From Mucilaginibacter geliditolerans (GTDB lineage: Bacteria; Bacteroidota; Bacteroidia; Sphingobacteriales; Sphingobacteriaceae), in the NCBI RefSeq assembly GCF_014200495.1, contig NZ_JACHBY010000003.1, forward strand, positions 828,079 to 892,078: DNA of 64,000 nt. The letters are read 5' to 3'. Below, one piece after another: positions 3,628 through 19,433 of the stretch. The notes below the pieces were generated by a model. It saw nothing but the letters and a program-made list of their open reading frames with translations. It was not told the DNA's origin and did no database searches. A program made the translations under genes and the position numbers. The stretch's first letter is position 1. Each line of letters opens with the position of its first letter.

Positions 3628-4941
3628 TTATGGGAAAGTAAGGCCCGGATAAGCCGCAACGTTGGCTAAAGGAATGCTTGAGCCATAAGTACTGTTTATA
3701 GCCTTTATAAACTCATTGGCTATAATAGAGTATCCGCGTGGCGTAAGGTGTACGCCATCAAGCGAGAATAAGCCACCGCTGATGTATGATGAATTAAGGC
3801 TGATACCATCAACCACCAAACCATTTGCTTTAACATTATTTAAGTAAGTATAGGCATCAAAAACTGCCAGGCCTTTTTGGGCCGCAATTGATTTAATGGT
3901 AGTGTTGTATGACTGCACGTAATCGCGGGTTAAGGCAACTTCATTGGCATCCAGCACATATTGATTATCAATTGGCGTTACTGGGGTTAAACCATAAGGC
4001 TGCGGGCCGTAAGGCGTTGTTACCAGCGTACCGATCATACTGGTTGGGAATGTTAGTATGATGAGGTCATTTGCTGTTGCTATCCTTGGCGCATAAGTAG
4101 TACCGGATACCAGCGCATTTACATACAATGCCTTCGCAGCCGGGTTTTTCGCTTGCACAGCGGCTAAAATAGCGCCAACCGTTACCGTATTAAAATAAGG
4201 GATAGAGGTAACATCAGGTATTGTAGCTACCACACCTTTTTGCCCTGATGCGGTTAGTTTTTCTATCGATAACTCATACAGCTCAGCAAAGGTATTTTTA
4301 TCTGTTAGCACATCCCCAACACCACCACCGGTCGCGTAGGCTAATGCATCATTATTACCCAGCCAATCAGAGAAAAAGGTAAACGACTTAGCTGTTACAA
4401 AATCAAGGTAATCGGTTGTATTGGTCGGTGCATCACCCGGCAGCATACGCTCAAAAAAGCCATTAAGGTTCCCGTAAGGAGCGTAAGTGATATTCAGCAG
4501 TTTAATTCCCGGCACGCCATAGTTCTCAATATCGCCGGTGTATTTGGTGTATAAAGTAACGTTACCAAACCCCGGCACAGGCAATATGCCGCGTATAGCC
4601 AGATCTGTAGTAACAGGTGCAGTAATAGGGTTTCCACTGGCATCAAAACCTGTTAGTTTAAGATAGCCTGAGCCGTTTTCCTGGCCGGTAGCGAATAAAG
4701 GCTGATTAAACGTGCCGCCGCCTACTGCCAGCATTTGCTTAGCCATGATAGACGGGTATGAGTTTAATTGGCCTGCAAGGTATAAACCACCATTAGAGTA
4801 ACCCGCTGTTAAGGAATTACCTACAGCTATAAAGCGTGTAAAATCAGCCCTGCCTTTTGTTGGCGCGGGGTTGTGTACTTCGGGCTTACAGGCAGCTAAA
4901 AATAGCAAACCTGCAATAAGATATATTTTAAAGTTCTTCAT
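3628..4941 (-). CDS. SGNH/GDSL-family lipoprotein hydrolase
   Basis: A 437-residue predicted lipoprotein of the SGNH/GDSL esterase-lipase family. The signal peptide ends in the lipobox LAAC with Cys18. Block I appears as GNSLTAG at 41-47 with the nucleophile candidate Ser43. A GNNDA stretch fits the block III Asn, and DGVHLTPRGY near the C-terminus supplies Asp395 and His398 of the catalytic triad. It is transcribed with the FadL-type porin directly upstream (16-base gap, same strand). That pairing suggests it frees fatty acids from esters at the cell surface or in the periplasm and hands them to the porin. Which face of the membrane it occupies cannot be read here. The asparagine in place of the usual Asp in GDSL is common in Bacteroidetes members. 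Confidence 0.88.
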   Translation of the reverse strand: MKNFKIYLIAGLLFLAACKPEVHNPAPTKGRADFTRFIAVGNSLTAGYSNGGLYLAGQLNSYPSIMAKQMLAVGGGTFNQPLFATGQENGSGYLKLTGFDASGNPITAPVTTDLAIRGILPVPGFGNVTLYTKYTGDIENYGVPGIKLLNITYAPYGNLNGFFERMLPGDAPTNTTDYLDFVTAKSFTFFSDWLGNNDALAYATGGGVGDVLTDKNTFAELYELSIEKLTASGQKGVVATIPDVTSIPYFNTVTVGAILAAVQAKNPAAKALYVNALVSGTTYAPRIATANDLIILTFPTSMIGTLVTTPYGPQPYGLTPVTPIDNQYVLDANEVALTRDYVQSYNTTIKSIAAQKGLAVFDAYTYLNNVKANGLVVDGISLNSSYISGGLFSLDGVHLTPRGYSIIANEFIKAINSTYGSSIPLANVAAYPGLTFP

Positions 4942-4957
4942 GTTTGTTATTTTTTAA

Positions 4958-6181
4958 TTACCAGTGATAAGCCAATGATAAGCCTGGGATGTAAACATTT
5001 GTTTCAAACGTACCTGCTAATTGCGACTGAATATTGGTTTGGGTGCGTGCATCAACGTGCTCATACTCAAATGAAACATCAAGATCTAATCTTGAAGCCA
5101 ATTTATACCCTAAACCACATGTTACAAATTGGCGTGGAGCGTCGGGGGCTTCTGCAGTAACATAACCATCCTGTACAGCTGTGCCTGCAAAACCACCGCC
5201 AAAGCGTATGAACAGGTTGTTACATGCCTTGTATTGAGCACCAGCCCTTACACTAATGGCATCCTGGTAATTACGGGCCGAATAGCTATCCTGTAATTGA
5301 GGTGTATTGATCTTGTAGTCAAAAGCTAAAGCTTTGTAAACATCCCATCCAACTAAATTGGCATCCAAAGCGAGTGTCCATCTTTCTGTTGGATAAAACC
5401 CAAAGCCGATTGATGTAGTTGATGGCAGCGGAATTGTTGCTTTAAAGCTATTAGGCTGCGGAAAGCTGCTTTGTAAGGATGAAGGAACATTAAAAATAGC
5501 ATTGCCATTATTAATGGTAGTACTTACACCTGAACGATGGGTAATACCAACGGTAATACCCGATTCGGTTTTTATAAAGATACCTGCGTTCCAACCATAC
5601 CCTTTACCTGATCCTTTAAGTTCGGCCTGCCCGTCCTGTCCGGCAGAATTGGTTAACGGGATAGCCTCCGTAAGATCAACTATACCGCGGTTATATACAA
5701 AGCCGCCGCCTATGCTCAAATAATCGGTTAGTTTTATACTTAATGTAGGCTGAAAGTAAATGGCTTTAAGATCGAGGCTTTCCAGCGTATATTTTCCTGC
5801 CCAACTATCTCCCCAGTCGGTTAAACCGCCAAAGGGCGTATATACGGCCATACCCAATTTCCACCAACCATTTTTGGGCCCTACGGCAGCATAAAAATTA
5901 AATGGTGTAGCAACCTTGTTTTCAACATGATCCTGCACATTGGTACCCATGGGGTTAAAAACAGACCTGAACATTAACGGGCTAATGCCTGCCTGAATAT
6001 AATTATCAGGCAACATAACAACGGCGCCGGGATTAAAAAATACGGAGGCACCATCCTGTAGCAGACCGGTACCGGTGTGGCCCATACCTATTTGTTTCTG
6101 CCCCTCAAGGTTCACCTGGAATCCTTGCGCGAATGAAATAACAGGTATCAGTGCGAGCACTAATAGTAGAATTTTCTTCAT
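4958..6181 (-). CDS. fadL: FadL/OmpP1/TodX-family outer-membrane fatty-acid transporter
   Basis: A 407-residue outer-membrane beta-barrel of the FadL family, which lets long-chain fatty acids or other hydrophobic substrates diffuse across the outer membrane. A signal peptide ends ISFAQ. The mature N-terminus GFQVNLEGQKQIGMGHTGTG is the hatch-type start, followed by DGASVFFNPGAVVML, a typical family block near the N-terminus. Barrel strands with alternating aromatic residues fill the rest, ending LSLAYHW. It heads a two-gene minus-strand unit with the GDSL lipoprotein and diverges from the AraC-type regulator at 6373. The 43-bp element at 6265-6307, about 83 bp upstream of the start, is shared with the fadE promoter region. 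Substrate is inferred from the neighbouring beta-oxidation genes. Confidence 0.9.
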   Translation of the reverse strand: MKKILLLVLALIPVISFAQGFQVNLEGQKQIGMGHTGTGLLQDGASVFFNPGAVVMLPDNYIQAGISPLMFRSVFNPMGTNVQDHVENKVATPFNFYAAVGPKNGWWKLGMAVYTPFGGLTDWGDSWAGKYTLESLDLKAIYFQPTLSIKLTDYLSIGGGFVYNRGIVDLTEAIPLTNSAGQDGQAELKGSGKGYGWNAGIFIKTESGITVGITHRSGVSTTINNGNAIFNVPSSLQSSFPQPNSFKATIPLPSTTSIGFGFYPTERWTLALDANLVGWDVYKALAFDYKINTPQLQDSYSARNYQDAISVRAGAQYKACNNLFIRFGGGFAGTAVQDGYVTAEAPDAPRQFVTCGLGYKLASRLDLDVSFEYEHVDARTQTNIQSQLAGTFETNVYIPGLSLAYHW

Positions 6182-6264
6182 GATTGTATAATTGGTTTAT
6201 ATGGTGCTATTTGTAAAGCTACAAATACGCTTTCTAAAAAAATAAAATTAGGTTGGTTTTATAC

Positions 6265-6307
6265 GAAAAAAAGGGCTATAATGCGGAGATATTAGTCAAA
6301 AAGTCGG
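6265..6307 (-). promoter_or_regulatory. Shared fad operator, copy A (fadL/araC side)
   Basis: Read on the minus strand this 43-bp stretch matches the plus-strand copy at 8664-8706 at 39 of 43 positions without gaps; the first 28 positions differ at one base. It contains two direct TCCG half-sites exactly 21 bp apart (TCCGAC and TCCGCA), which is the classic two-turn spacing of AraC-family dimers, then a C-rich spot and a run of seven T's. It lies between the divergent fadL and AraC-type genes, 83 bp from the fadL start and about 65 bp from the regulator start. Binding by the neighbouring regulator is inference. Confidence 0.65.
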
Positions 6308-6372
6308 AGAAAGGATTAATTTAGAGTTAACTATCAACACTATATTTAATTAGTTATATTAAATAAATACAT

Positions 6373-7260
6373 ATGAGTAAAAAAGTCGCACAATTAAGCT
6401 TATCAAAATTTGCAGACCTGTACGCAGATAAGCTTGTTGGCCCCGATTTTTTTATCACCGATGAAAAACAACTGTTGAGCCTCAGCGAATATCCCTATCG
6501 TTCCGATGGGTATATTATTGGCATATGCACCCGCGGCACGGCACAGGTTGAAGTGAACCTGCAGGTATACCAGTCGAGGCCCGATGCCATGCTCCTGGCC
6601 ACGCCTTTCCATACCTTACGCATTTATAACAGCAGCCCTGATTTTTTATGCCGCTTCATTGTTTTTTCAAAAGCATTCTTAACGGAGAATAATGTTAACA
6701 GCCATTTCCTGGAATCGTTCAGTTATTTTAAAAGCGCATCGCTTCCGGTTATATATCCCACGCATGAAGAGATAAACATGCTGCTGGATATTTATATGCT
6801 GATGAAGAAAAAGCTGGAGCGTGAGGAGCACCCTTACCGTATGGAAATATCAAGGAGCATTTTAACCTCGCTGCTATACGAGGTGGAATCAATATATGAG
6901 CACCATCATGTAATGATAAAGGGGAAACAAACCCGCAAGCAGGAGTTGAATGTGCTGTTCCAGGAACTGGTTTTTCATCATTATAAGGAACACCGCAACG
7001 TACAGTATTATGCCGATGCGTTGTATGTATCATCAAAACACCTTACCGAAACCATTAAAGAAGTAACAGGCCGAACTGCCGGTGAGTGGATAGACGATGC
7101 CGTGATACTGGAAGCAAAGGTATTACTAAGGAACCACGAGATCAGCATAGCCCGCATAGCCGAGGATATTAATTTCCCCGATCAATCCTCTTTTGGCAAG
7201 TATTTTAAAAACCACACAGGGCTTTCCCCGTCAGATTATCGTGTGGCAATGGCTATTTAA
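6373..7260 (+). CDS. AraC-family transcriptional regulator
   Basis: A 295-residue regulator. The N-terminal half (about 25-110) reads as a cupin-like sensing domain, with YIIGICTRGTAQVEVNLQVY and a following beta-rich segment. The C-terminal region (about 195-290) carries the two AraC-type helix-turn-helix motifs: VQYYADALYVSSKHLTETIK, then ISIARIAEDINFPDQSSFGK followed by YFKNHTGLSPSDYR, the family signature. It is divergent from the fadL-lipoprotein operon and is followed, two small genes later, by the beta-oxidation genes. With the duplicated operator-like element upstream of both fadL and fadE, it is the natural candidate regulator of fatty-acid uptake and oxidation, perhaps sensing a fatty acid or acyl-CoA. 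Ligand and sign of regulation are not visible. Confidence 0.9.
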   Translation: MSKKVAQLSLSKFADLYADKLVGPDFFITDEKQLLSLSEYPYRSDGYIIGICTRGTAQVEVNLQVYQSRPDAMLLATPFHTLRIYNSSPDFLCRFIVFSKAFLTENNVNSHFLESFSYFKSASLPVIYPTHEEINMLLDIYMLMKKKLEREEHPYRMEISRSILTSLLYEVESIYEHHHVMIKGKQTRKQELNVLFQELVFHHYKEHRNVQYYADALYVSSKHLTETIKEVTGRTAGEWIDDAVILEAKVLLRNHEISIARIAEDINFPDQSSFGKYFKNHTGLSPSDYRVAMAI

Positions 7261-7356
7261 TACCGCTTAATTATACTGTTACCCAACTATAAATTTATAA
7301 ATACGTATCAGGTGGTTTAATATATTAAATTCACAATATATCAAGCCCCCTAAAAA

Positions 7357-7812
7357 ATGAAAAAAACTATTATTATACTGTTTTTGCTGGCATCGTCGCT
7401 ACTGGTAAAAGCCCAGCATGCGCAACCCGACAGCGTTATAAAAGTAACACCTACTAAAACAGGCACCCATACCACATATGCATATACTATTGCAGGCAAA
7501 GTGCAAACACCAGATGAGGTTAAGATTAAACTGTTAGCCTATACCCCGTCGGCCAATGAATTTCGGCAAGCAAAAATTGAAACTAAATGGGCTGTTATTT
7601 CAACAGTGGGGTTTGCCGTATCAGCTATAGGAGCAGTAATTGAGTACACGAACAATAATAACGCCCCCGCTACCGAGCACCATAGCCTTACAGGCGCATA
7701 TATTTTTACTGGTGCTGCTACCGCGTTTTTTACCAGCGCCGTAATTAACCTGGTGCAGGCCGGCAAACACAAAACCAAAGCCATGAAGGTGTATAACCAG
7801 CGTTTTGAGTAA
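7357..7812 (+). CDS. Small exported membrane protein, tandem paralogue 1
   Basis: A 151-residue protein of unknown function. An N-terminal signal peptide ends VKAQ, followed by a short polar domain with YAYTIAGKVQTPDEVKIKLL. Two hydrophobic segments follow: ISTVGFAVSAIGAVIEY (about 83-99) and IFTGAATAFFTSAVINLV (about 115-132). It ends KAMKVYNQRFE. The next gene (8066-8575) is a clear paralogue with the same order of elements and the same ending. Leader sequences and trailing hairpins of the two genes also match in part, so the whole transcription unit was duplicated. I recognise no family. It lies between the fatty-acid regulator and fadE, so a link to lipid uptake is possible but unsupported. 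Confidence 0.75.
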   Translation: MKKTIIILFLLASSLLVKAQHAQPDSVIKVTPTKTGTHTTYAYTIAGKVQTPDEVKIKLLAYTPSANEFRQAKIETKWAVISTVGFAVSAIGAVIEYTNNNNAPATEHHSLTGAYIFTGAATAFFTSAVINLVQAGKHKTKAMKVYNQRFE

Positions 7813-7837
7813 ACGTAAAATATTTTTTTACATATTA

Positions 7838-7860
7838 AAAGTCCTTATAAAGGGTTTTTA
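7838..7860 (+). terminator. Decayed terminator hairpin after paralogue 1
   Basis: An imperfect hairpin (AAAAGTCCTT / AAGGGTTTTT) aligns with the perfect terminator after the second paralogue at 8598. Following T-rich sequence is also shared (TTTTTTGACTTTTTA in both). It looks like the same element with mutations, so it may terminate poorly. Confidence 0.45.
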
Positions 7861-8065
7861 ATATCTGTTTTTTTGACTTTTTACTTTTGGACTTGTAACT
7901 TCTTTGATAGATTCGACAAGGATTTCAGTAAACATATATATGATTGTTACATAGCTACTTATAAGAAAAAAAAGTAATCAACTTGTTACATAATCCTGGG
8001 TTGACAAATAGTGATTTGGATAGTTTAATATTATAAATTCACATAATATTAAATACATCCAAAAA

Positions 8066-8575
8066 ATGAAAAACCTTATTATTACCCTGTTTCTACTTAC
8101 ATCGTCATTGTTGGTAGAAGCACAACAAAATCAACCATCGCATGCGCAACCCGACAGCGTAATTAAACTGATTCCTTATGGCGAGGGCAGGCAGGCAGGC
8201 TATCTTTACACCATTGGCGGCAAACTACAAACACCCGATGATGTTAAGATGAAACTTTTAGCTTATGCACCATCAGCCGATGAGTACCATAAGGCCAGGA
8301 ACAGTGCAACGTGGGTCTATATTTCAACGGCAGGTTTTGCCATAACAAGCACGGTAGCTATATTCGAGTATGCGCACAACAGTAAAACGAACGGCGCAAC
8401 AACCGCCTGGGTGAACGGCGTACCAACTTTTGAATACCCGCATCACAGCTATACCAGCGCCTATATTTTTACAGGGCTTGCCACTGCGTTTATTACCAGT
8501 ACCATTATTAACCTTGTACATGCCAGCAAACATGCTAAAAAAGCCCTGGATGTATACAATCAACGTTTTGAGTAA
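8066..8575 (+). CDS. Small exported membrane protein, tandem paralogue 2
   Basis: A 169-residue paralogue of the gene at 7357-7812. Shared features are the start MKN/MKK followed by a hydrophobic signal ending VEAQ, then HAQPDSVIK, the block GGKLQTPDDVKMKLLAYAPSA, a first membrane segment (ISTAGFAITSTVAIFEY), a second one (YIFTGLATAFITSTIINLV) and the ending VYNQRFE. It has an 18-residue longer linker between the two membrane segments. Its promoter region (TTTAATAT..TAAATTCACA) resembles that of the first copy. A strong terminator follows, separating it from fadE. Function unknown. Confidence 0.75.
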   Translation: MKNLIITLFLLTSSLLVEAQQNQPSHAQPDSVIKLIPYGEGRQAGYLYTIGGKLQTPDDVKMKLLAYAPSADEYHKARNSATWVYISTAGFAITSTVAIFEYAHNSKTNGATTAWVNGVPTFEYPHHSYTSAYIFTGLATAFITSTIINLVHASKHAKKALDVYNQRFE

Positions 8576-8597
8576 ACTTAATTGGTTCCCATTTGTT

Positions 8598-8623
8598 AAA
8601 AGCCCTATAAAGGGCTTTTTTTA
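8598..8623 (+). terminator. Rho-independent terminator after paralogue 2
   Basis: Perfect 9-bp stem (AAAAGCCCT / AGGGCTTTT) with a 4-base loop followed by a T-run. It closes the transcript of the second small membrane protein and makes read-through into fadE unlikely. Confidence 0.85.
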
Positions 8624-8663
8624 TTTAAGCTGTTTTTTGACTTTTTAACTTACAAAGCTCTTT

Positions 8664-8706
8664 CCGACTTTTTGACGAATATCTCCGCATTGTAAACCTT
8701 TTTTTC
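8664..8706 (+). promoter_or_regulatory. Shared fad operator, copy B (upstream of fadE)
   Basis: Plus-strand partner of the element at 6265-6307: 39 of 43 positions identical, ungapped, with TCCG half-sites 21 bp apart and the same seven-T run. It ends 114 bp before the fadE start and just after the previous gene's terminator, so it lies in the fadE promoter region. Orientation relative to the controlled gene is the same as for fadL. Confidence 0.65.
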
Positions 8707-8820
8707 AACCAGTAACGAATATAATTTTACCCCTGATTATAGAACCAAAATATTGCAAGGGTCAAAAGCGTTTATGCAATAACCAATTAAGTATAAAACA
8801 TATCCTTAAAAAACAATTTT

Positions 8821-10617
8821 ATGAGCAGTACTGAAGCTGTAAAAGCTATAAAGGGAGGGGAGTTCCTGATAAGGGAAACTTCGGCAGAAGATGTTTTCAT
8901 TCCGGAAGAATGGAATGAGGAACAATTGATGATAGCCGAAACATGCACCAACTTTCTTGCGCAACACATCACACCAAACCTGGTTCGTATTGATGATCAG
9001 GAAGAGGGATTGATGCCGCATTTGATGGAGGAAGCAGGTGCATTGGGCTTACTAAGCATATCAATACCCGAGGAATATGGTGGCTTTGGCAAGGATTTTA
9101 AAACATCAATGCTGGTTACCGAAAAACTGGGCGCAGGCAATTCATTTTCCGTGGCGTTTTCAGCGCATACGGGCATTGGTACCTTGCCTATATTATATTA
9201 TGGTAACGATGAGCAGAAAGCAAAATATATACCCAAACTGGCCAGTGGCGAGTGGAAAGGCGCTTATTGCTTAACCGAGCCAAGTTCAGGTTCTGATGCC
9301 AATTCGGGTAAGGCTCGTGCAAAACTTACCGAGGATGGCAAGCATTACCTGCTTAATGGCCAGAAAATGTGGATCACCAATGCAGGCTTTGCTGATATCT
9401 TCACCGTTTTTGCTAAGATTGATAATGATGAAAACCTGAGCGCATTCATAGTTGAAAAGAGCTTTGAGGGCATCACCCTGAATCCTGAAGAACATAAAAT
9501 GGGCATAAAAGGCAGCTCAACCCGGCAGGTATTTTTTAATGACTGCAAAGTACCGGTTGAAAACCTGTTATCAGAACGCCAGAATGGTTTTAAGATAGCC
9601 GTTAACATATTAAATCTCGGCCGTATAAAATTAGGCGGCGGCACAGTTGGGGCAAGTAAGGAAGTTACTACCCAGGCTATCCGTTATGCTAATGAGCGCG
9701 AACAATTCGGCAGGCCGATCTCAAAATATGGCGCTATCCGTTATAAACTGGCACAATCTGCCATCCGCACCTATGCATCTGAGTCTGCCATCTATCGCGC
9801 CAGCGAAAATATGGAACAGGCTACCGAGCATTTGGTTGAAACCGGCATGGATGCCATAAAAGCCAAGCTAAAAGGTACCGAGCAGTATGCTATTGAAGCA
9901 GCCATCATCAAAGTACACGCATCTGAAACATTGAATTATGTGGTTGACGAAGGCGTACAGATCTACGGTGGGATGGGCTATAGTGCCGAGGCTCCTATGG
10001 ACCGCGCTTATCGCGATTCACGCATCAATCGCATATTTGAGGGCACTAACGAGATTAACCGCATGCTGACTGTCGACATGATGCTGAAACGCGCCATGAA
10101 AGGTGAGCTTGACCTGATGGGACCTGCAGCAAAGGTAGCGGGCGAACTAATGAGTATTCCTGATTTTGGAGGCAGTGAGGATGAAGGCTTATTCAGCAAG
10201 GAAAAGAAATATATAGCCGGGTTTAAAAAAGCCGTATTAATGGTGGCCGGTGGCGCGGTACAAAAGCTGATGCAGCAATTAGGCAAGGAACAGGAAGTAT
10301 TAATGAACGTGGCCGATATGCTGATAGAACTGTATGTAAGCGAATCGACCCAGTTACGTGTTGAGAAGCTGGTGAGCATGCGCGGCGAAGAAGCCTGCAA
10401 AGAACAATTGGACATTATGCGGGTTTATATAAACGACGCGGCAGAGCACATCGCAAAATCGGGAAAAGAAGCCATTAATTCATTTGCTGATGGCGATGAA
10501 AGAAGAATGATGCTGATGGGCCTTAAACGCTTTACAAAAACCGAAGATTTTAACACGACTCAGGCCCGCAGAAACATTGCTGCGAAGCTGATTGAAGAAA
10601 ATAAATATTGTTTTTAA
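8821..10617 (+). CDS. fadE: Acyl-CoA dehydrogenase, long-chain FadE type
   Basis: A 598-residue FAD enzyme for the first step of beta-oxidation (acyl-CoA to trans-2-enoyl-CoA), passing electrons to the ETF encoded next. The core (about 40-430) has the two family signatures: GAYCLTEPSSGSDANS and later the C-terminal flavin/catalytic block with YGGMGYSAEAPMDRAYRDSR and IFEGTNEINRML, whose Glu in FEGTNE is the expected catalytic base. The extra 170-residue C-terminal helical region is absent from short-chain enzymes and fits the VLCAD/ACAD9-like and Bacillus FadE class (about 594 residues, from memory). First gene of the beta-oxidation run, preceded by the shared operator. Chain-length preference is inferred only from class. 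Confidence 0.93.
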   Translation: MSSTEAVKAIKGGEFLIRETSAEDVFIPEEWNEEQLMIAETCTNFLAQHITPNLVRIDDQEEGLMPHLMEEAGALGLLSISIPEEYGGFGKDFKTSMLVTEKLGAGNSFSVAFSAHTGIGTLPILYYGNDEQKAKYIPKLASGEWKGAYCLTEPSSGSDANSGKARAKLTEDGKHYLLNGQKMWITNAGFADIFTVFAKIDNDENLSAFIVEKSFEGITLNPEEHKMGIKGSSTRQVFFNDCKVPVENLLSERQNGFKIAVNILNLGRIKLGGGTVGASKEVTTQAIRYANEREQFGRPISKYGAIRYKLAQSAIRTYASESAIYRASENMEQATEHLVETGMDAIKAKLKGTEQYAIEAAIIKVHASETLNYVVDEGVQIYGGMGYSAEAPMDRAYRDSRINRIFEGTNEINRMLTVDMMLKRAMKGELDLMGPAAKVAGELMSIPDFGGSEDEGLFSKEKKYIAGFKKAVLMVAGGAVQKLMQQLGKEQEVLMNVADMLIELYVSESTQLRVEKLVSMRGEEACKEQLDIMRVYINDAAEHIAKSGKEAINSFADGDERRMMLMGLKRFTKTEDFNTTQARRNIAAKLIEENKYCF

Positions 10618-10706: not shown

Positions 10707-11450
10707 ATGAAAATATTAGTCTGCATAAGCCAGGTGCCGGATACCAGCACCAAAATTGTGTTAAAGGATAACAATACTGCGGTAAACACGCAGGGAACTA
10801 CCTGGATCATCAACCCGTATGATGAATGGTACGCGCTCATCCGCGCGCTCGAATTAAAAGAAAGTGGCGTAGCAAGCGATGTCCACCTGGTAACTGTTGG
10901 TAAAGCCGATACCGAGCCGGTGATCAGGAAGGCGCTGGCCCTGGGCGGCGACCAGGCCGTACGCATTGATGCCGATAGCAACGACCCTTACGAAACTGCC
11001 AGTTACATAGCCGAATATGCCAAGAGCAATGGTTACGACCTAGTTTTATGTGGCAAGGAATCCATTGATTATAACAACGGGACCGTTGGCGTTATGCTGG
11101 CCGAACTGCTGGATATGGATTACATAGGCTTTGCAACCAATATACAGGTTGAAGGCAGCACCGCTACCGTAAAACGCGAAATTGAGGGCGGCGAAGAAAC
11201 CGATACTGTTAGTTTACCTGTGGTGATCTCCTGCCAAAAAGGTGTTGCTGAGGCCCGCATACCAAATATGCGTGGTATTATGGCTGCACGTACCCGTCCG
11301 CTTAATGTGGTTACGCCTACCGCGGTAACGCCTGTAGCTGCCATATTATCGTATGAGATGCCACCGGCAAAAGCGGGTATAAAAATGGTGAGTCCTGATA
11401 ATATGGATGAACTGGTTCAATTGCTGCACACTGAGGCAAAAGTTATCTAA
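10707..11450 (+). CDS. etfB: Electron transfer flavoprotein subunit beta
   Basis: A 247-residue ETF beta subunit, partner of EtfA, carrying electrons from acyl-CoA dehydrogenases to the quinone pool through ETF:quinone oxidoreductase. The start MKILVCISQVPDTSTKI and the block WIINPYDEWYALIRALELKE are typical. The segment YDLVLCGKESIDYNNGTVG matches the AMP/FAD-binding region, and RIPNMRGIMAARTRPL is the family signature near the C-terminus. A near -7 box (TAAATTTA) stands just before the start, so an extra promoter in the fadE-etfB gap is possible. EtfA follows after 16 bases. Confidence 0.95.
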   Translation: MKILVCISQVPDTSTKIVLKDNNTAVNTQGTTWIINPYDEWYALIRALELKESGVASDVHLVTVGKADTEPVIRKALALGGDQAVRIDADSNDPYETASYIAEYAKSNGYDLVLCGKESIDYNNGTVGVMLAELLDMDYIGFATNIQVEGSTATVKREIEGGEETDTVSLPVVISCQKGVAEARIPNMRGIMAARTRPLNVVTPTAVTPVAAILSYEMPPAKAGIKMVSPDNMDELVQLLHTEAKVI

Positions 11451-11466: not shown

Positions 11467-12441
11467 ATGTCTGTATTAGTATTGGTAGAACATACCGATG
11501 GAAACATAAAAAAGAAAAGCTTCGAAGCGGTACAATATGCTGCTGAAATAGCCAAACAAACAAGCACAACTGCTACCGCTTTAGTTTTAGGAACTATTGC
11601 CGATAGCGAATTGGAAACCTTAGGCAATTACGGTGCGCAAAAAGTATTGCACGTTGCCGACAAGCGCCTTAACGATCTGCATGCACGTGCCTATACCAGC
11701 GCATTGATCGCGGCAGCACAAAAAGAAGGCAGCAAGATCATTGTTATGCTGCATGATATTAATGGCAAAGCTGTAGCACCAAGAGTTGCTATAAAGCTGA
11801 AAGCCGGTATGGTTGCAGGCGCGTTGTCATACCCTGATCTGGCTAAAGGTTTTGTAATTAAAAAAGCTGTGTACTCAGGTAAGGCATTCGCGTTTGTAAA
11901 TATTACAAGCGATGTAAAAGTGATCACCGTTATGGCCAACAGCTTCCCGTTGGTACAGGGCGATGGCAAAGCAGCTGTTGAAAAACTGGATTTAACTTTT
12001 GGCGATAAGGATTTCGGCATAAAAGTAAAAGAAGTAAATAAAGTAACCGGCGAAGTTTCATTGGCAGATGCAGAACTGGTAGTATCCGGCGGTCGCGGTA
12101 TGAAAGGCCCTGAAAACTGGGGCCTGATAGAAGACCTGGCTAAAGAACTGGGAGCAGCCACAGCATGTTCACGCCCGGTAGCCGATGCAGGCTGGAGGCC
12201 GCACCATGAGCACGTGGGCCAAACAGGTGGTACCATCCGCCCTAATTTATATATCGCTGTGGGGATTTCGGGCGCTATCCAGCATTTGGCAGGGGTTAAT
12301 GGTTCAAAGGTTATTGTGGTTATCAACAAAGATCCTGAAGCACCATTCTTTAAAGCGGCTAACTACGGTGTTGTAGGCGATGCCATGGAAATATTGCCAC
12401 GACTTACCGAAGCGGTAAAGAAATTCAAAGCGCATAAATAA
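11467..12441 (+). CDS. etfA: Electron transfer flavoprotein subunit alpha
   Basis: A 324-residue ETF alpha subunit. The N-terminal domain (MSVLVLVEHTDGNIKKKSFE) pairs with EtfB. The C-terminal FAD-binding domain holds VVSGGRGMKGPENWG, ACSRPVADAGWRPHHEHVGQ, the segment GGTIRPNLYIAVGISGAIQH, and INKDPEAPFFKAANYGVVGD, which together form the family signature. It receives electrons from the dehydrogenases at 8821 and probably 44690. It is 7 bases from the following thioesterase gene, which points to one transcript. Confidence 0.96.
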   Translation: MSVLVLVEHTDGNIKKKSFEAVQYAAEIAKQTSTTATALVLGTIADSELETLGNYGAQKVLHVADKRLNDLHARAYTSALIAAAQKEGSKIIVMLHDINGKAVAPRVAIKLKAGMVAGALSYPDLAKGFVIKKAVYSGKAFAFVNITSDVKVITVMANSFPLVQGDGKAAVEKLDLTFGDKDFGIKVKEVNKVTGEVSLADAELVVSGGRGMKGPENWGLIEDLAKELGAATACSRPVADAGWRPHHEHVGQTGGTIRPNLYIAVGISGAIQHLAGVNGSKVIVVINKDPEAPFFKAANYGVVGDAMEILPRLTEAVKKFKAHK

Positions 12442-12448
12442 CCGGGCT

Positions 12449-12895
12449 ATGGTGGTATACTATGAGGGTCAGGTATTATGGTCACAGCTGGATGCAAACC
12501 AGCACATGCGGCATTCGGCCTATGCGGATATTGCCGCGCAGGCCCGTTTAAACATGCTGAACAGCCTGGGTTTACACCCCGCAGAACTTTTTGAATACCA
12601 CATAGGCCCCATATTATTCAGGGAAGAGCTTTTTTACCTGCGCGAGATAACTATAAATGATATCGTAAAAGTATCCTGCGAACTGATCAAAGCCCGTGCC
12701 GATGGTTCCCGCTGGACCATTCGCCATGAGATACATCGCGGCGATGGTATCAAGGCAGCCATTATTATTGCTGAAGGTGCATGGATCGATATGCAAAAAA
12801 GGAAACTTGCTGTTTTACCTATTCAGTTAAGTGAATTATTCATGCTATCACCAAAAGGTGAAGATTACGTAGAAGAACAAGCCAAAACCAAATAA
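12449..12895 (+). CDS. Hot-dog fold acyl-CoA thioesterase
   Basis: A 148-residue protein of the 4-hydroxybenzoyl-CoA/acyl-CoA thioesterase (hot-dog) superfamily. The N-terminal motif LWSQLDANQHMRHSAYADIA aligns with the D..GH(M)....Y catalytic segment of YbgC/FadM-like enzymes, with Asp and Asn/His in place. ELFYLREITINDIVKVSCEL and AIIIAEGAWIDMQKRKL are the expected strands after it. In E. coli FadM clears long-chain acyl-CoA dead-end intermediates during oleate breakdown, and the same service role fits this operon. It lies between etfA (7 bases) and the acyl-CoA-binding protein (5 bases), indicating tight co-transcription. Confidence 0.82.
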   Translation: MVVYYEGQVLWSQLDANQHMRHSAYADIAAQARLNMLNSLGLHPAELFEYHIGPILFREELFYLREITINDIVKVSCELIKARADGSRWTIRHEIHRGDGIKAAIIIAEGAWIDMQKRKLAVLPIQLSELFMLSPKGEDYVEEQAKTK

Positions 12896-12900
12896 CACCG

Positions 12901-13155
12901 ATGGAACTGAAAGAGCAATTTGATAAAGCCGTAGCCGACAGCAAACAACTGCCGTCGCGGCCGGATAACGATACATTATTACGCATATACAGCCTGTACA
13001 AACAAGCCACTGAGGGCGATATTAATGCTGAGCCACCGGGCATGTTTGATTTTGTAGCCAAAGCCAAATATGATGCATGGACGAAGTTGAAAGGTGTTAG
13101 TGCTGAGGATGCGATGAGGCAATATGTGGAGGTTGTGGAGAATCTTAAAAAATAA
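12901..13155 (+). CDS. Acyl-CoA-binding protein
   Basis: An 84-residue four-helix protein of the ACBP family that binds long-chain acyl-CoA in the cytosol, buffers it and delivers it to enzymes. Family residues are evident: LLRIYSLYKQATEGDINAEP and FVAKAKYDAWTKLKGVSAED followed by AMRQYVEVVENL. Length matches the usual 80-90 residues. ACBPs are ubiquitous in eukaryotes but patchy in bacteria, so its place inside a beta-oxidation operon supports a direct role in this pathway. Its stop codon touches the first arm of the inverted repeat at 13155-13250. Confidence 0.92.
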   Translation: MELKEQFDKAVADSKQLPSRPDNDTLLRIYSLYKQATEGDINAEPPGMFDFVAKAKYDAWTKLKGVSAEDAMRQYVEVVENLKK

Positions 13156-13250: not shown

Positions 13251-13462
13251 ACGTGGGTTTTCCGAAATATTGACAAATGTTTCCGTCATTTAGCCCTTGA
13301 TATATCCTTAATGAAAGGGATATTTGTTATTATAAACCAATACTAAATTATTTAAATCGTCACCTGATTATTGTTACCTGTAAAAAAGGTAAAACTTATT
13401 ATGCTTTATATTTATTAAGGTATTATAAGCCTGTTTAATTAGCTGATTTAAAACCTGTAATA

Positions 13463-13918
13463 ATGTCTGTATTAAAAAGAAATCTCATCCGTTTAATGTT
13501 AGTGATGCTAACATTGGTAACCGTAAACATTGCCGCAAAAGCTCAAACCGACCAGATAGAGGGCCTGTGGTATAATGATGTTAAAAGCGGTAAGATCCTC
13601 ATCACCCGCGAAAAGGATGGTAAGTTTTACGGCAAGGTAGTTTGGCTCAAAGAACCACTGAAAAATGGCAAGCCAAAGGTTGATGAATTAAATGAAGATG
13701 AAAAATTGCGCGGCAGGCCACGGCTGGGACTGCCTGTATTATACGGCTTTGTGAAGGACGGGGACAACAAGTATACCGACGGTAAAATTTACGACCCGAA
13801 TAACGGAAAGACCTATTCCTGTAACATTACCTTCAAAGGCAATAAGCTGGATATACGCGGATATATCGGCATCTCGCTGTTTGGGCGTACTACAACCTGG
13901 ACAAGGGCTGAAAATTGA
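13463..13918 (+). CDS. DUF2147 family exported protein
   Basis: A 151-residue exported protein. The signal peptide ends IAAKAQ. The mature part is a DUF2147 domain: IEGLWYNDVKSGKILITREK, then YGKVVWLKEP, and the block LGLPVLYGFVKDGDNKYTDG followed by KIYDPNNGKTYSCNI. These lipocalin-like beta-barrel proteins are periplasmic and of unknown function. It sits inside the beta-oxidation run, 48 bases before fadN, so it may be co-transcribed, but the family occurs in many contexts. Whether it handles lipids is unknown. Confidence 0.85.
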   Translation: MSVLKRNLIRLMLVMLTLVTVNIAAKAQTDQIEGLWYNDVKSGKILITREKDGKFYGKVVWLKEPLKNGKPKVDELNEDEKLRGRPRLGLPVLYGFVKDGDNKYTDGKIYDPNNGKTYSCNITFKGNKLDIRGYIGISLFGRTTTWTRAEN

Positions 13919-13966: not shown

Positions 13967-16345
13967 ATGGATGCTAAACGAATAATAAAGAAAGTCGCGG
14001 TACTGGGTTCGGGAGTGATGGGCAGCAGGATTGCCTGTCATTTTGCAAACATCGGCGTACAGGTGCTGCTGCTGGATATTGTACCGAAGGATGCCCCTGC
14101 CGATAAAAAAAGCAGGAATAAAATAGTTGATGACGCGCTGGCCTTTGCCTTAAAATCAAACCCATCACCCATCTACTTGAAATCATTTGCCAAACGTATC
14201 ACCACCGGCAATTTTGAGGATGATATGCCCAAAATTGCGGAGTGCGACTGGATAATTGAAGTTGTAGTCGAACGCCTCGACATTAAGCAAATTGTATTTG
14301 AAACTGTTGAAAAATTCAGGAAAGCGGGTACACTCATTACATCAAATACATCAGGTATTCCTATCCATTTAATGGCTGAGGGCCGCAGCGATGATTTTAA
14401 ACAGCACTTTTGCGGCACCCACTTTTTTAACCCGCCGCGTTATTTAAAGCTGCTGGAAATTATCCCTACAAAGGATACATTAAGCAGTGTGACCGATTTC
14501 CTGATGGCTTATGGTGAGAAATTCCTGGGCAAAACTACGGTGTTGGCAAAAGATACGCCTGCATTCATTGGTAACCGTATTGGTGTTTTCAGCATCATGA
14601 ATTTGTTGCACTACGTGGATAAAACAGGCATGACGGTTGAGGAAGTAGATAAACTTACCGGCCCGGTGATCGGTCACCCGAAATCAGCAACCTTCCGCAC
14701 AACGGATGTGGTGGGTTTGGATACCATGATTCATGTGGCTAACGGCTTGTATGAAAATGCAAAGGATGATGAAGCGAGAGAATCGTTCAAGATCCCTGAC
14801 TTCGTTACCGGCATGGCCAAAAACAACTGGCTGGGTAGCAAGACAAACCAGGGTTTTTATAAAAAAGAGAAAGTAGATGGCGCAAACCAATTCTTCGCGC
14901 TCGACCTGAAAACTTTGGAATATAAGCCATCGCAAAAAGTGAAATTTCCATCGCTGGAAACTACCAAAGCTGTTGATAGTTTAAAGGATCGCCTAAAAAT
15001 ATTATTTGCCGCGAAGGACAAAGCAGGTGAATTTTATCGCTCTACTTTTTACGAACTATTTGCTTATTCCAGCAACCGCATCCCTGAAATTTCAGACGAG
15101 CTTTATAAAATAGATGCCGCCATGAACGCCGGTTTCGGCTGGGAAATGGGTCCGTTTGAAAAATGGGACGCATTAGGCGTAGCTGACACGGTTAAAGCGA
15201 TGGAAGAAAGTGGCAATAAACCTGCGCAGTGGGTTTATGATATGCTGGCATCGGGCGCGCAATCATTTTACAAGGTGGAGAACGGCAAGCGCTTGTATTA
15301 CGACATACCATCAAAAACCTACAAAATAATACCGGGCACCGAGCAATTTATTTTGCTGGATAACATCCGCCCGACACATACCATTTGGAAAAACAGCGGC
15401 ACCACTATTACCGATATCGGCGATGGTATCATCAACCTGGAATTCCACACTAAAATGAACACCATTGGCGGTGAGGTGATCGAAGGCATCAACAAAGCCA
15501 TTACGTTTGCCGAAGCCAGTTATAAAGGTTTAGTGATCTCTAACGAAGGTGCAAACTTTAGCGCGGGCGCAAATGTGGGCATGATCTTCATGCTGGCAGT
15601 CGACCAGGAATTTGATGAGCTGAACATGGTGATCAAGGCATTCCAGAACACGATGATGCGGGTGCGTTATTCATCTATCCCGGTTGTGGTTGCCCCACAC
15701 CAAATGGCTTTAGGCGGCGGCTGCGAGATCTGTTTACATGCAGACAAGGTAGTTGCCCATGCTGAAACATATATGGGTCTGGTGGAATTCGGCGTAGGCC
15801 TCATCCCCGGCGGCGGCGGCACCAAGGAGTTTGCTTTGCGATTATCCGACGATCTGCAGGAAGGCGATATCGAAACAAACAATTTCCGTGACCGCTTCCT
15901 GACCATCGGCCAGGCAAAGGTATCCACATCAGCTTATGAAGCCTTTGATTTCGGCTACCTGAAAAAAGGCCGTGACGCTATTGTGGTATCACAAAACCGG
16001 TTACTGGCCGAAGCCAAACAACATTGTTTGCAGATGGCTGATGAAGGCTATGTACAGCCAGTTCCGCGTACCGACATCCGGGTATTAGGCAAACAGGCAC
16101 TGGGCCTGGGTTATGTAGGCGCGAATACCATGTACAGCGGCAATTACATCAGTGAGCATGACGTGAAGATCTCACAAAAATTGGCTTATGTACTTGCAGG
16201 TGGCGATTTGTCGCAGCCAACAACAGTAAGTGAAGATTACTTGTTAGGATTAGAAAGGGAAGCCTTTGTGGCCCTATGCACCGAGCGCAAAACGCTGGAA
16301 CGCATACAATCTATTTTAACAGGAGGAAAAATATTAAGGAATTAA
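13967..16345 (+). CDS. fadN: 3-hydroxyacyl-CoA dehydrogenase/enoyl-CoA hydratase, FadN type
   Basis: A 792-residue bifunctional enzyme for the hydration and NAD-dependent dehydrogenation steps of beta-oxidation. Domain order is reversed from E. coli FadB. The Rossmann domain comes first (KKVAVLGSGVMGSRIACHF, GxGxxG near 13-18), with catalytic His in GTHFFNPPRYLK and the link DTPAFIGNRIG. A second dehydrogenase C-domain follows (GFGWEMGPFEKWDALG). The crotonase domain is last, with FSAGANVGMIFML, then the catalytic-type Glu residues in ALGGGCEICLHAD and GLVEFGVGLIPGGGG. Length and order match Bacillus subtilis FadN (about 789 residues, from memory). It is followed by the thiolase that normally forms its partner. 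Confidence 0.94.
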   Translation: MDAKRIIKKVAVLGSGVMGSRIACHFANIGVQVLLLDIVPKDAPADKKSRNKIVDDALAFALKSNPSPIYLKSFAKRITTGNFEDDMPKIAECDWIIEVVVERLDIKQIVFETVEKFRKAGTLITSNTSGIPIHLMAEGRSDDFKQHFCGTHFFNPPRYLKLLEIIPTKDTLSSVTDFLMAYGEKFLGKTTVLAKDTPAFIGNRIGVFSIMNLLHYVDKTGMTVEEVDKLTGPVIGHPKSATFRTTDVVGLDTMIHVANGLYENAKDDEARESFKIPDFVTGMAKNNWLGSKTNQGFYKKEKVDGANQFFALDLKTLEYKPSQKVKFPSLETTKAVDSLKDRLKILFAAKDKAGEFYRSTFYELFAYSSNRIPEISDELYKIDAAMNAGFGWEMGPFEKWDALGVADTVKAMEESGNKPAQWVYDMLASGAQSFYKVENGKRLYYDIPSKTYKIIPGTEQFILLDNIRPTHTIWKNSGTTITDIGDGIINLEFHTKMNTIGGEVIEGINKAITFAEASYKGLVISNEGANFSAGANVGMIFMLAVDQEFDELNMVIKAFQNTMMRVRYSSIPVVVAPHQMALGGGCEICLHADKVVAHAETYMGLVEFGVGLIPGGGGTKEFALRLSDDLQEGDIETNNFRDRFLTIGQAKVSTSAYEAFDFGYLKKGRDAIVVSQNRLLAEAKQHCLQMADEGYVQPVPRTDIRVLGKQALGLGYVGANTMYSGNYISEHDVKISQKLAYVLAGGDLSQPTTVSEDYLLGLEREAFVALCTERKTLERIQSILTGGKILRN

Positions 16346-16428: not shown

Positions 16429-17604
16429 ATGAACGCATATATAGTGGCGGCCAGCCGCAGCGCTGTTGGAAAAGCAACCCGTGGTGGTTTTAGATTTACC
16501 CGCCCGGATACTCTTGCCGCCGATGTTATAAAACACCTGATGGCATCTGTACCGAATGTGGATAAGGATGAGATAGAGGATGTAATTGTAGGTAATGCCA
16601 CACCAGAGGCAGAGCAGGGGCTGAATGTTGCCCGCTTAATCTCGCTAATGTCGCTGGATACCGATAAGGTACCGGGCATGACGGTGAACAGGTATTGCGC
16701 ATCGGGACTGGAAACTATTGCCATCGCGTCGGCAAAAATACATGCCGGCATTGCAGATTGTATCATAGCCGGTGGTGTTGAAAGCATGAGCCTGTTACCT
16801 ATGGGCGGCTGGCGCATTGTTCCCAATGCTGATGTGGCCCTGGCTCACCCTGATTATTACTGGGGCATGGGTCTAACTGCCGAGGCTGTAGCTAAGGAGT
16901 ATAAAATCAATCGTGAGGAGCAGGACCTGTTTGCCTATAACTCGCACCAGAAAGCCATCAGCGCCATAAAGGAAGGTAAGTTTAAGGATGAAATAGTGCC
17001 TGTAAACATTACTGAGGTTTATGTTGATGAAAGCGGCAAAAAGAAGAAAAGGGATTTTAAGATAGATACCGATGAAGGCCCAAGGGCAGATACCTCTATT
17101 GATGCCCTGGCAAAATTAAAACCAGTTTTTGATGCAAAGGGTGTGGTTACCGCTGGTAATTCATCCCAAACCAGTGATGGCGCTGCCTTTGTGATGGTGG
17201 TAAGTGAGCGTTTTATGAAAAAGAATAACCTTACCCCTATAGCCCGTTTGGTAAACTATGCCGTTGTTGGCGTGCCGCCAAGGATTATGGGCATAGGCCC
17301 TCTGTATGCCATACCGAAAGTGTTAAAAATGGCAGGTATGAAACAGCAGGACATGGATTTGTTCGAGCTAAATGAAGCCTTTGCATCGCAATCATTAGCG
17401 GTTATCAAGGGTCTGGACCTGAACCCTGATCTCATCAATGTTAACGGAGGCGCTATTGCTTTGGGTCATCCGCTGGGTTGCAGCGGGGCTAAGCTTTCGG
17501 TGCAGCTTTTTAACGAGTTGAAAAAACGTGATAAAAAATACGGTATGGTAACCATGTGTGTGGGTACCGGGCAAGGTGCCGCGGGCATATTTGAAATGTT
17601 ATAG
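16429..17604 (+). CDS. fadA: Acetyl-CoA C-acyltransferase (3-ketoacyl-CoA thiolase)
   Basis: A 391-residue thiolase for the last step of beta-oxidation, releasing acetyl-CoA. The nucleophile is Cys90 in NRYCASGLETIA. The second active-site block is GHPLGCSGAK with His347, and the acid/base Cys377 lies in MCVGTGQGAAGIF. The N-terminal block holds EIEDVIVGNATPEAEQGLN and ends with a standard C-terminus. The length equals that of Bacillus FadA. It follows the FadN-type enzyme after a long hairpin and precedes the acyl-CoA synthetase by 17 bases, so the downstream genes form one unit. Confidence 0.95.
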   Translation: MNAYIVAASRSAVGKATRGGFRFTRPDTLAADVIKHLMASVPNVDKDEIEDVIVGNATPEAEQGLNVARLISLMSLDTDKVPGMTVNRYCASGLETIAIASAKIHAGIADCIIAGGVESMSLLPMGGWRIVPNADVALAHPDYYWGMGLTAEAVAKEYKINREEQDLFAYNSHQKAISAIKEGKFKDEIVPVNITEVYVDESGKKKKRDFKIDTDEGPRADTSIDALAKLKPVFDAKGVVTAGNSSQTSDGAAFVMVVSERFMKKNNLTPIARLVNYAVVGVPPRIMGIGPLYAIPKVLKMAGMKQQDMDLFELNEAFASQSLAVIKGLDLNPDLINVNGGAIALGHPLGCSGAKLSVQLFNELKKRDKKYGMVTMCVGTGQGAAGIFEML

Positions 17605-17621: not shown

Positions 17622-19433
17622 ATGGAAGCGACAAGATTATTTGATTGCATACCAGCACAGGCCGCAGCGCCCCGGGCTGATTTCTTAGCTGCAAAAGAAA
17701 ACGGCATATGGCGGTCATACAGTACACAGGAAGTGCATACTATGATTAACCAGCTCACCATGGCGCTGCTGGATATGGGTATTTCCTCAGGCGACGGTAC
17801 GGATGAGGGCAGGGATAAGATCGGCCTCATCAGCAATGGCCGGCCTGAATGGGTAATAGTTGATCTCGCTGTACAGCAAACAGGCGCGGTTTTAGTGCCA
17901 TTGTATCCCAACACAAATGCCAAGGAAATTGAGCAGATCCTGATCGAATCGGCAGTAAAATATATTTTTGTGAGCGATAAGGAACTTTGTGATAAAGTAA
18001 GTCTCGTTCGCCATAATGTACCAACGTTAAAGGAGGTATATGCTTTCGATAAAATTGAAAGTTGTCCCAACTGGACAGAATTACTCAAGCCTTTGCCAAC
18101 TGGTTACCTGCAAAAAATAGCCGGTATAACCAGCAATATCAGCGAGAACGATCTTACTACCATCATTTATACATCGGGTACTACAGGCAGGCCCAAAGGC
18201 GTAATGCTGAGCCATAAAAATATTGTGAGCAATGTGTTGGCATCAGGGCTGGTGCTTTCGCAGATCCCGGTCAGTGAAAAACGCGCATTCAGCTTTTTGC
18301 CTATGAACCATATTTTTGAAAAGATGTGTACCTACATCTATCTCTTTTATGGGTTCTCCATTTCTTATGCCGAGAATATGGATACCATCGGCCCGAATAT
18401 CCGCGATGTAAAACCCTCTATTTTTACCGCCGTACCACGCCTGCTCGAGAAGATATTTGAGCGCATTATGGCCGAAGGACAAAAACTAACCGGCGCAAAA
18501 AAGAAGATCTTTTTATGGTCGGTTAAAGTGGCGGAGGAATTTGAGCTTGAGCACACCAGTCCCTGGTATAAAATTAAACTGGCCGTTGCTGAGAAGCTGG
18601 TTTTCAGTAAATGGCGGGCAGCTATCGGTGGTAATTTAAAGGCGATAGTTATCGGCAGCTCCGCCTGCCCGGTTAAGCTCGAAAAGATATTTACTGCTGC
18701 CGGCATGGCGGTGATGGAAGGTTACGGCTTAACTGAAACCTCGCCTGTAATATCGGTTAATCAATATGACCCGAAAGGGCGAAAATTTGGTACCGTAGGT
18801 AAACTGATCGACAAGGTGCAGGTTAAAATAGCCGAGGACGGCGAAATACTTTGCAAAGGCCCAAATGTTATGATGGGCTATTATAAAAACCCGGAAATGA
18901 CTGCCGAGGTTATGCAGGATGGCTGGTTCCATACCGGTGATATCGGTGTACTGGATGAACAAGGCTTCCTGAAAATCACCGACCGTAAAAAGGAGATCTT
19001 CAAAACATCGGGTGGTAAATATGTAGCCCCGTTGCCTATCGAGAATAAAATGAAGGAAAATCATTTTATTGAACAGATGATGGTGGTGGGTGCAGGCAAA
19101 AAATTTACAGCTGCTTTGATCGTGCCATCATACACTAATTTATTGCCATGGTGCAGGGCAAATGATATTCCCACTATCTCACATGCCGAAATATTGAAAG
19201 ACAAACGTGTGATTGCCCTATATCAATCAGCAGTAGACACTTTCAACCCTGAGTTTAACCATGTGGAACAGGTGAAAAAGATCACTTTGCTGCCCAATGA
19301 ATGGTCGATAGAAAGTGGGGAGCTTACGCCAACCGGAAAAATGAAGCGCAAGGTGATAACTGAAAAATACAATGCCGAGATAGAGAAAATGTATGCAGGC
19401 GAACCAAATGAAAGTCCGTCGCTGGTAAGCTAA
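17622..19433 (+). CDS. fadD: Long-chain fatty-acid-CoA ligase (AMP-forming)
   Basis: A 603-residue acyl-CoA synthetase that activates fatty acids entering through the outer membrane, using ATP and CoA. The AMP-binding P-loop TTIIYTSGTTGRPKGVMLSH lies near 183-202. The adenylate-binding block is GYGLTETSPVISVNQ and the ATP/AMP-binding motif follows as GWFHTGDIGVLDEQGF, then ITDRKKEIFKTSGGKYVAP. The last block carries the catalytic-type Lys of TPTGKMKRK. Length and order fit the long-chain (ACSL-like) branch. Next to fadA and followed after 13 bases by the isomerase gene. Confidence 0.93.
   Translation: MEATRLFDCIPAQAAAPRADFLAAKENGIWRSYSTQEVHTMINQLTMALLDMGISSGDGTDEGRDKIGLISNGRPEWVIVDLAVQQTGAVLVPLYPNTNAKEIEQILIESAVKYIFVSDKELCDKVSLVRHNVPTLKEVYAFDKIESCPNWTELLKPLPTGYLQKIAGITSNISENDLTTIIYTSGTTGRPKGVMLSHKNIVSNVLASGLVLSQIPVSEKRAFSFLPMNHIFEKMCTYIYLFYGFSISYAENMDTIGPNIRDVKPSIFTAVPRLLEKIFERIMAEGQKLTGAKKKIFLWSVKVAEEFELEHTSPWYKIKLAVAEKLVFSKWRAAIGGNLKAIVIGSSACPVKLEKIFTAAGMAVMEGYGLTETSPVISVNQYDPKGRKFGTVGKLIDKVQVKIAEDGEILCKGPNVMMGYYKNPEMTAEVMQDGWFHTGDIGVLDEQGFLKITDRKKEIFKTSGGKYVAPLPIENKMKENHFIEQMMVVGAGKKFTAALIVPSYTNLLPWCRANDIPTISHAEILKDKRVIALYQSAVDTFNPEFNHVEQVKKITLLPNEWSIESGELTPTGKMKRKVITEKYNAEIEKMYAGEPNESPSLVS

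Follow-up and report, generated by a model that had tools for sequence, protein, structure and literature searches.

How the genes of fatty-acid uptake and β-oxidation are controlled is the question raised by a stretch of 64,000 nucleotides from Mucilaginibacter geliditolerans (GCF_014200495.1, NZ_JACHBY010000003.1, positions 828,079–892,078 of the forward strand), analysed here as a whole and called the window. Within it the gene of an AraC-family regulator lies between fadL and fadE, and each of these two genes is preceded by a copy of the same short element. A first-pass annotation had taken the pair for operators of the AraC protein in a fatty-acid regulon of Bacteroidetes. Our analysis builds on the sites, their conservation, their co-occurrence with the araC gene and their fixed promoter geometry, all observed in the sequence, and on these grounds we consider it likely that three elements are operators of the AraC protein encoded between fadL and fadE, which would activate a regulon of uptake and β-oxidation.

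Three operator copies at the fad locus

In ungapped comparison the fadL and fadE elements were identical at 39 of 43 positions (6265–6307, minus strand, against 8664–8706, plus strand), and both contained TCCG-N17-TCCG, 21 bp from start to start. The first-pass annotation was accurate in this identity and spacing; the start it had given to the elements was one base late, since TCCG begins at 6308 (minus) and 8663 (plus), and counted from there the identity is 40/44. A 29-base core pattern, searched with up to three mismatches, matched only the fadL and fadE sites in the window (no match in 100 shuffled windows) and only these two in the whole 6.5-Mb genome, where the reversed control gave none. 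A looser pattern of 38 bp, which allows for the weaker positions, was used with the same number of mismatches and placed the fadL operator at 6271–6308 (minus) and the fadE operator at 8663–8700 (plus), the likeness between these two copies extending to 6265 and 8706, respectively. It also detected a third operator without any mismatch at 13261–13298 (plus), 164 bp upstream of a DUF2147 gene that is followed by fadB; the earlier count of two real sites had overlooked it. One further match, with three mismatches, was found on another contig, and the reversed control likewise gave one. With a 25-bp pattern and up to two mismatches the genome yielded the three sites at no mismatch and two matches elsewhere at two mismatches, the latter meaningless because the reversed control gave 21. 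The convincing copies of the operator in the 6.5-Mb genome are three, all at the fad locus, which upholds the expectation that the core is not scattered over unrelated genes and rules out a dispersed repeat.

The internal structure of the operator was examined with 86 distinct 44-mers. When lags of 8 to 29 were scanned, self-identity was highest at lag 21 (0.571), followed by lag 29 (0.429), and the half-sites obtained were TCCGACTTTTTGACtAATATC and TCCGCAtTacAGCCCTTTtTT. These are tandem half-sites about 21 bp apart, the arrangement of an AraC class II direct-repeat operator. The three operators precede fadL and a GDSL-type gene; fadE, etfB, etfA and the genes of a thioesterase and an acyl-CoA-binding protein; and the DUF2147 gene, fadB and the genes of a thiolase, an acyl-CoA synthetase, an enoyl-CoA hydratase and a short-chain dehydrogenase, where the operon limits are presumed from gene spacing and strand. 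An operator shared by uptake and β-oxidation genes is the mark of a fatty-acid degradation regulon.

The proposed regulator and its co-occurrence with the site

The candidate reader of the operators, as judged from its domains and from site co-occurrence, is a protein of 295 amino acids encoded at 6373–7260 (plus). It matched Pfam HTH_18 with 71.4 bits (cut-off 33.6) and HTH_AraC with 43.9 bits, also above cut-off, so that the AraC-type regulator reported between the two sites is indeed there. The C-terminal double helix-turn-helix domain of the AraC type was found, and the family is also backed by fold. In a Foldseek search over the whole chain the structures of Rns and ToxT ranked first, at a whole-chain root-mean-square deviation of about 8–13. 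The equivalog model of Escherichia coli AraC, NF007860, was not reached (71.3 bits; cut-off 208).

Conservation of the sites was scored over 37 loci and co-occurrence over 149 genomes of Mucilaginibacter, whose members are soil bacteria. Gene order at the fad locus is largely kept among relatives. The fadL site was present in 32/32 loci with fadL beside araC, and a site stood upstream of the first gene 3′ of araC in 36/36 loci; the core is therefore conserved at fadL and at the downstream operon, as had been predicted. Loci with a relocated fadE kept the site at the gene that now comes first, etfB in eight distinct loci and the thioesterase gene in one. The second site does precede fadE in the window, as annotated; more generally, it goes with whichever gene the operon starts with. 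The third site was found in 29 of the 33 loci with fadB and was missing from L036, L047, L129 and L136. In three of these (L036, L047 and L136, of which the last two seem to be one genome) etfBA and the DUF2147 gene were not found, and the third promoter is maybe dispensable there because fadE, the thioesterase gene and fadB cluster closely.

Across the genus the site (up to three mismatches) occurred in 65/149 genomes and the reversed control in none. The AraC protein was detected at E ≤ 1e-50 in 67/149; three of these had only paralogues of 40–43% identity, which leaves 64 genomes with the orthologue. Site and AraC occurred together in 64 genomes, the site alone in one, AraC alone in none and neither in 84. 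In the single genome with the site alone (G136) the site lies at base 164 of a contig, that is, at a contig end. FadE (E ≤ 1e-150) was found in 68/149, including seven genomes without AraC: G136 and six others, and these six had no site either genome-wide (up to three mismatches) or in the fad region (up to five). Three sites beside AraC orthologues were found again in a further genus, g26, in one genome (G173) and likewise, over two contigs, in another (G197). Over all genomes searched, only some Mucilaginibacter and this one further genus have the system; of the regulon proposed for Bacteroidetes, the shared operator and its association with AraC stand and the breadth does not.

Another DNA-binding protein, either a second AraC-family member or a general factor, might read the sites while araC serves something else. 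The genome does hold many AraC-family candidates (88 at first look), and related sites occur near other AraC genes (L144, L148). This explanation nevertheless appears unlikely, given that 64 of the 65 site-bearing genomes of the genus carry this AraC orthologue, which never occurs without the site, that site and AraC are present together in g26 as well, and that all three sites lie inside the araC locus. Binding of the operators by the AraC protein of the fad locus is, on the strength of these sequence patterns, highly probable.

The related sites were seen as follows. Near the AraC paralogues (32–41% identical; L138–L144) no site was found at up to four mismatches; one match appeared at five mismatches (L144) and one at six (L140). 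The L144 site (8380, minus) reads TCCA-N17-TCCA, which departs from the usual layout by a single base and retains the inner TTGAC, and lies directly past a 40%-identical AraC paralogue and upstream of a nitroreductase gene. In genome G395 of genus g37 one similar site (L148, 7901, minus; neighbouring open reading frames 4432–7750 and 8283–9179) is divergent from the gene of a 31%-identical AraC protein and precedes an operon whose proteins match Pfam Aminotran_1_2, GNAT and epimerase models; we take this operon to resemble sphingolipid synthesis, with a serine palmitoyltransferase-like enzyme. The sites by the AraC genes of L144 and G395 hint that a branch of AraC proteins may read one type of site.

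The operators lie at a fixed distance from predicted promoters

The Bacteroidetes −7 consensus is given as TAnnTTTG at −12 to −5, together with TTTG at −33, in two reports (PMC6847099; PMC9723704), the first of which describes the −33 motif of Flavobacterium johnsoniae as weak. We searched for TAnnTTTG with at most one mismatch, counted the offset from the first base of the operator and compared the counts with 200 simple shuffles. Predicted −7 boxes were found in the window for fadL (TAATTTTA, 6243–6250, minus, 58 nucleotides from the operator start), for fadE (TAATTTTA, 8722–8729, plus, 59 nucleotides) and for the third promoter (GATATTTG, 13319–13326, plus, 58 nucleotides). The same offsets recurred among relatives: 58 nucleotides in 46/47 distinct fadL promoters (shuffle maximum 5), 59 nucleotides in 41/42 distinct fadE promoters (maximum 5) and 58 nucleotides in 26/29 distinct third-site promoters (maximum 4). 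Of the eight etfB promoters, six had the box at 58 nucleotides and one at 59 (maximum 2). The distance from operator end to start codon was 87–105 nucleotides for fadL, 119–289 for the third promoter, 82–124 for etfB and 56–225 for fadE; since leader lengths vary in this way, the operator/−7 spacing outside fadL is not a by-product of a fixed leader.

Because the −7 box sits at a fixed 58 or 59 nucleotides from its start, the operator would span about −70 to −33 of these predicted promoters, a position expected of an AraC-type activator in contact with the −33 region; on the same predicted promoters, the promoter-proximal half-site adjoins the −35/−33 element at fixed spacing. The −7 boxes of fadL and fadE in the window are without the final G of the consensus, which would suit promoters needing help.

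The AraC protein might instead bind the operators and repress when fatty acids are absent; the AraC family includes repressors and proteins that act in both ways. We regard such repression as improbable: an operator that stops at about −33 leaves the −7 box and the start site uncovered, the fixed −7 spacing in four promoter classes suits contact with polymerase, and the fadL and fadE boxes are short of the consensus. Activation in place of repression is thus favoured by the predicted geometry and seems probable, a little less so than binding itself. Under the activator reading, the operator would consist of two half-sites arranged head to tail at 21 bp, each made of TCCG and, about 10 bp further along, a G-C box. 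An AraC dimer would bind it with the promoter-proximal half reaching about −33, and RNA polymerase would be drawn by the bound dimer to the promoter with its −7 box at fixed spacing, in class-II-type activation such as E. coli AraC exerts at araI1-I2.

There was no support for the fadL site as a control element of araC itself: the best offset of a −7 box in the direction of araC occurred in 8/47 sequences (shuffle maximum 5) against 46/47 in the direction of fadL. The fadL-side site goes with fadL, because the three loci in which fadL is not beside araC (L036, L041, L047) have no site upstream of araC. Wherever both genes were found, araC points away from fadL.

A MarR-linked fad operon in relatives

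The first-pass annotation had set the AraC protein against the TetR- and GntR-type FadR regulators; these were not searched for, and the contrast found locally was with a MarR-type gene beside the fad operon. In a sample of 131 Sphingobacteriaceae genomes, FadE was present in 94, this MarR in 99 and AraC in eight. The MarR gene was on the same strand, 3.6–5.1 kb upstream of fadE, in 78 of the 86 FadE genomes without AraC; in the remaining eight, MarR and fadE were on different contigs (three) or there was no MarR match (five). Such linkage was found in 0/8 AraC genomes, where MarR was on another contig (five), 0.9 Mb away (one) or without a match (two). By this difference, 78/86 against 0/8, the AraC system stands where most sampled members of the family have the MarR-linked operon. 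Within Mucilaginibacter, all six genomes with FadE and without AraC or site had a same-strand MarR-type gene upstream of fadE; in L121, L122 and L126 the order was MarR-type, FadB, thiolase-like (by eye) and FadE, the MarR type being assigned by Pfam in L121 and L122. This operon has FadB and FadE homologous to those of the AraC locus (66–73% identity for most FadE) and differs in being headed by the MarR-type gene and in having neither AraC nor the site next to it. The FadE of the window shares 69–71% identity with the MarR-linked FadE proteins of its own genus and 60–73% with the FadE of AraC-less other genera.

That MarR and AraC are mutually exclusive genes was rejected, as MarR was found in 142/149 genomes of the genus; the difference therefore lies in whether the fad genes adjoin MarR. 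In the genome of the window and in two others (G002, G067) a MarR gene persists, with no fad genes next to it. The copy in the genome of the window (G000:C9:128070–128492; L153 8053–8505) is 75% identical to the MarR heading the operon of relatives, and is followed by the kinds of genes found beyond fadE in L122 and L126, namely two small lipoprotein-like and one photolyase-like (by eye). Related proteins of about 117 amino acids are encoded in or beside the MarR-type operon, between thiolase and fadE (L121 10318–10674; L122 3398–3751 and 8154–8507), and look, by eye only, like four-helix-bundle (23S intervening sequence) proteins.

The sites could conceivably be operators of this fad-linked MarR, which stands beside fadB-fadE in most sampled family members and of which the genome of the window retains one; the proposal is extremely improbable, since MarR occurs in 142/149 genomes of the genus and the site in 65, the six genomes with MarR beside the fad genes have no site, and MarR operators, unlike this direct repeat, tend to be palindromic. 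We put forward only tentatively, as a view that has somewhat more against it than for it, that the fad pathway changed hands: in the lineage of Mucilaginibacter, an AraC activator directly sensing a long-chain fatty acid or acyl-CoA would have supplanted a MarR-headed operon, with operators evolving in concert and the old MarR left without fad genes.

Likeness of the sites within a genome

Over 45 loci, the spacers were more alike between the fadL site and the downstream site within a genome (0.93) than when permuted (0.83; 0/1000 permutations), and so were the ten bases upstream of the two sites (0.418 against 0.323; 0/1000). The downstream flank was not beyond permutation (0.401 against 0.395; 230/1000). 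The permutation does not remove the relatedness of the genomes. Such concerted change could stem from short gene conversion, or from both sites co-evolving with a single regulator. The inverted operator copies on either side of araC have derived spacer variants and some upstream bases in common within a genome, as copying or joint selection would leave them. A dispersed repeat or recent duplication that plays no part in regulation, its copies homogenized by gene conversion, would account for the likeness of spacers and upstream bases and is hardly credible, as the three convincing copies are all at promoters at a fixed −7 distance, are conserved while their flanks diverge, and have sequences beyond the core that stay site-specific.

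Several points count against the AraC protein as activator through these operators. The upstream bases shared within a genome lie outside the core, and gene conversion explains them as well as co-evolution with a regulator does; most of the AraC paralogues, which are free of strict sites, were not seen to read such a site; four of the 33 fadB loci are without the third site; and the genomes are related, so that co-occurrence and conservation are not independent trials. In addition, the N-terminal, cupin-type ligand-binding model of AraC in Pfam gave 20.0 bits, below its cut-off of 21.1. For induction by a fatty acid or acyl-CoA we see the chances as evenly balanced.

Genes downstream of the operators

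The FadL-family outer-membrane transporter (4958–6181, minus) matched PF03349 with 158.5 bits and did not reach the FadL equivalog model (64 of 585 bits); a GDSL-type lipase/acylhydrolase gene lies 3′ of it (3628–4941, minus; PF00657, 34.1 bits). All genes of the other two operons are on the plus strand. The acyl-CoA dehydrogenase FadE (8821–10617) matched NF058590 with 799.7 bits (cut-off 600). It is followed by the beta-type electron-transfer flavoprotein gene etfB (10707–11450; PF01012, 117 bits), whose subunit was assigned from NCBIfam matches below cut-off, and by the alpha-type etfA (11467–12441), an open reading frame named by position and by eye, the neighbourhood of which with EtfB is conserved across loci. 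Genes of a 4HBT-type thioesterase (12449–12895; PF13279, 61.9 bits) and the acyl-CoA-binding protein (12901–13155; PF00887, 111.5 bits) come next. Past the third operator, the DUF2147 gene (13463–13918; PF09917, 120.2 bits) is the first, followed by those of a FadB-type 3-hydroxyacyl-CoA dehydrogenase/enoyl-CoA hydratase (13967–16345; 3HCDH_N, 3HCDH, ECH_1), a FadA-like thiolase (16429–17604; Thiolase_N, Thiolase_C), a FadD-like acyl-CoA synthetase (17622–19433; AMP-binding, 222.5 bits), an enoyl-CoA hydratase/isomerase (19447–20214; ECH_1, 141.4 bits) and the short-chain dehydrogenase that ends the presumed third operon (20229–21110; adh_short_C2, 163.7 bits). Between araC and fadE two related small proteins of 151 and 169 amino acids are encoded in tandem (7357–7812 and 8066–8575); they had no Pfam match and occur only in the closest relatives (L004, L005, L023).

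Comparison with known systems

The mechanism is ordinary for AraC/XylS proteins; what is new is the regulon and its contrast, or exchange, with the MarR-linked operon. In the open-access literature, by titles and the starts of abstracts, little came up on how Bacteroidetes control fatty-acid catabolism, and no paper was named for its regulation by an AraC or MarR protein in this phylum. If the pathway did change hands, Bacteroidetes would have an activator of the AraC type for fatty-acid catabolism, and the handover from a presumed repressor to an activator would be traceable. The regulator, its three operators, the predicted promoters and the regulator that sister lineages have instead are described to base level, the replacement of the regulator is open to study across about 150 sequenced species of one genus, and the locus offers a predicted activator–promoter pair of Bacteroidetes.

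E. coli AraC at araI1-I2 shares with this system an AraC-family protein, direct half-sites about 21 bp apart and a promoter-proximal half-site at the edge of the −35/−33 region; unlike there, the promoter here is of the Bacteroidetes −7 type (TAnnTTTG), the genes are lipid genes and the operators are three. The regulators of fatty-acid degradation in other phyla, FadR (GntR), FadR (TetR) and PsrA, are mostly repressors released by acyl-CoA. They resemble the present system in the coordinate control of fatty-acid uptake and β-oxidation genes, and differ in protein family, operators and logic; they were not searched for in this genome. For Bacteroides thetaiotaomicron, the part of PMC3878776 that concerns AraC-type hybrid regulators gives predicted direct repeats at an average distance of 21 bp. 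The AraC-type DNA-binding domain is common to both systems; those proteins are, in the same part of that source, hybrid sensor kinases for polysaccharides, whereas the protein here is a one-component regulator of 295 amino acids beside fatty-acid genes. Within the AraC family, ToxT and Rns bind fatty acids and SphR responds to sphingosine (PMC7504960; PMC3900636), and these proteins provide a precedent for long aliphatic ligands.

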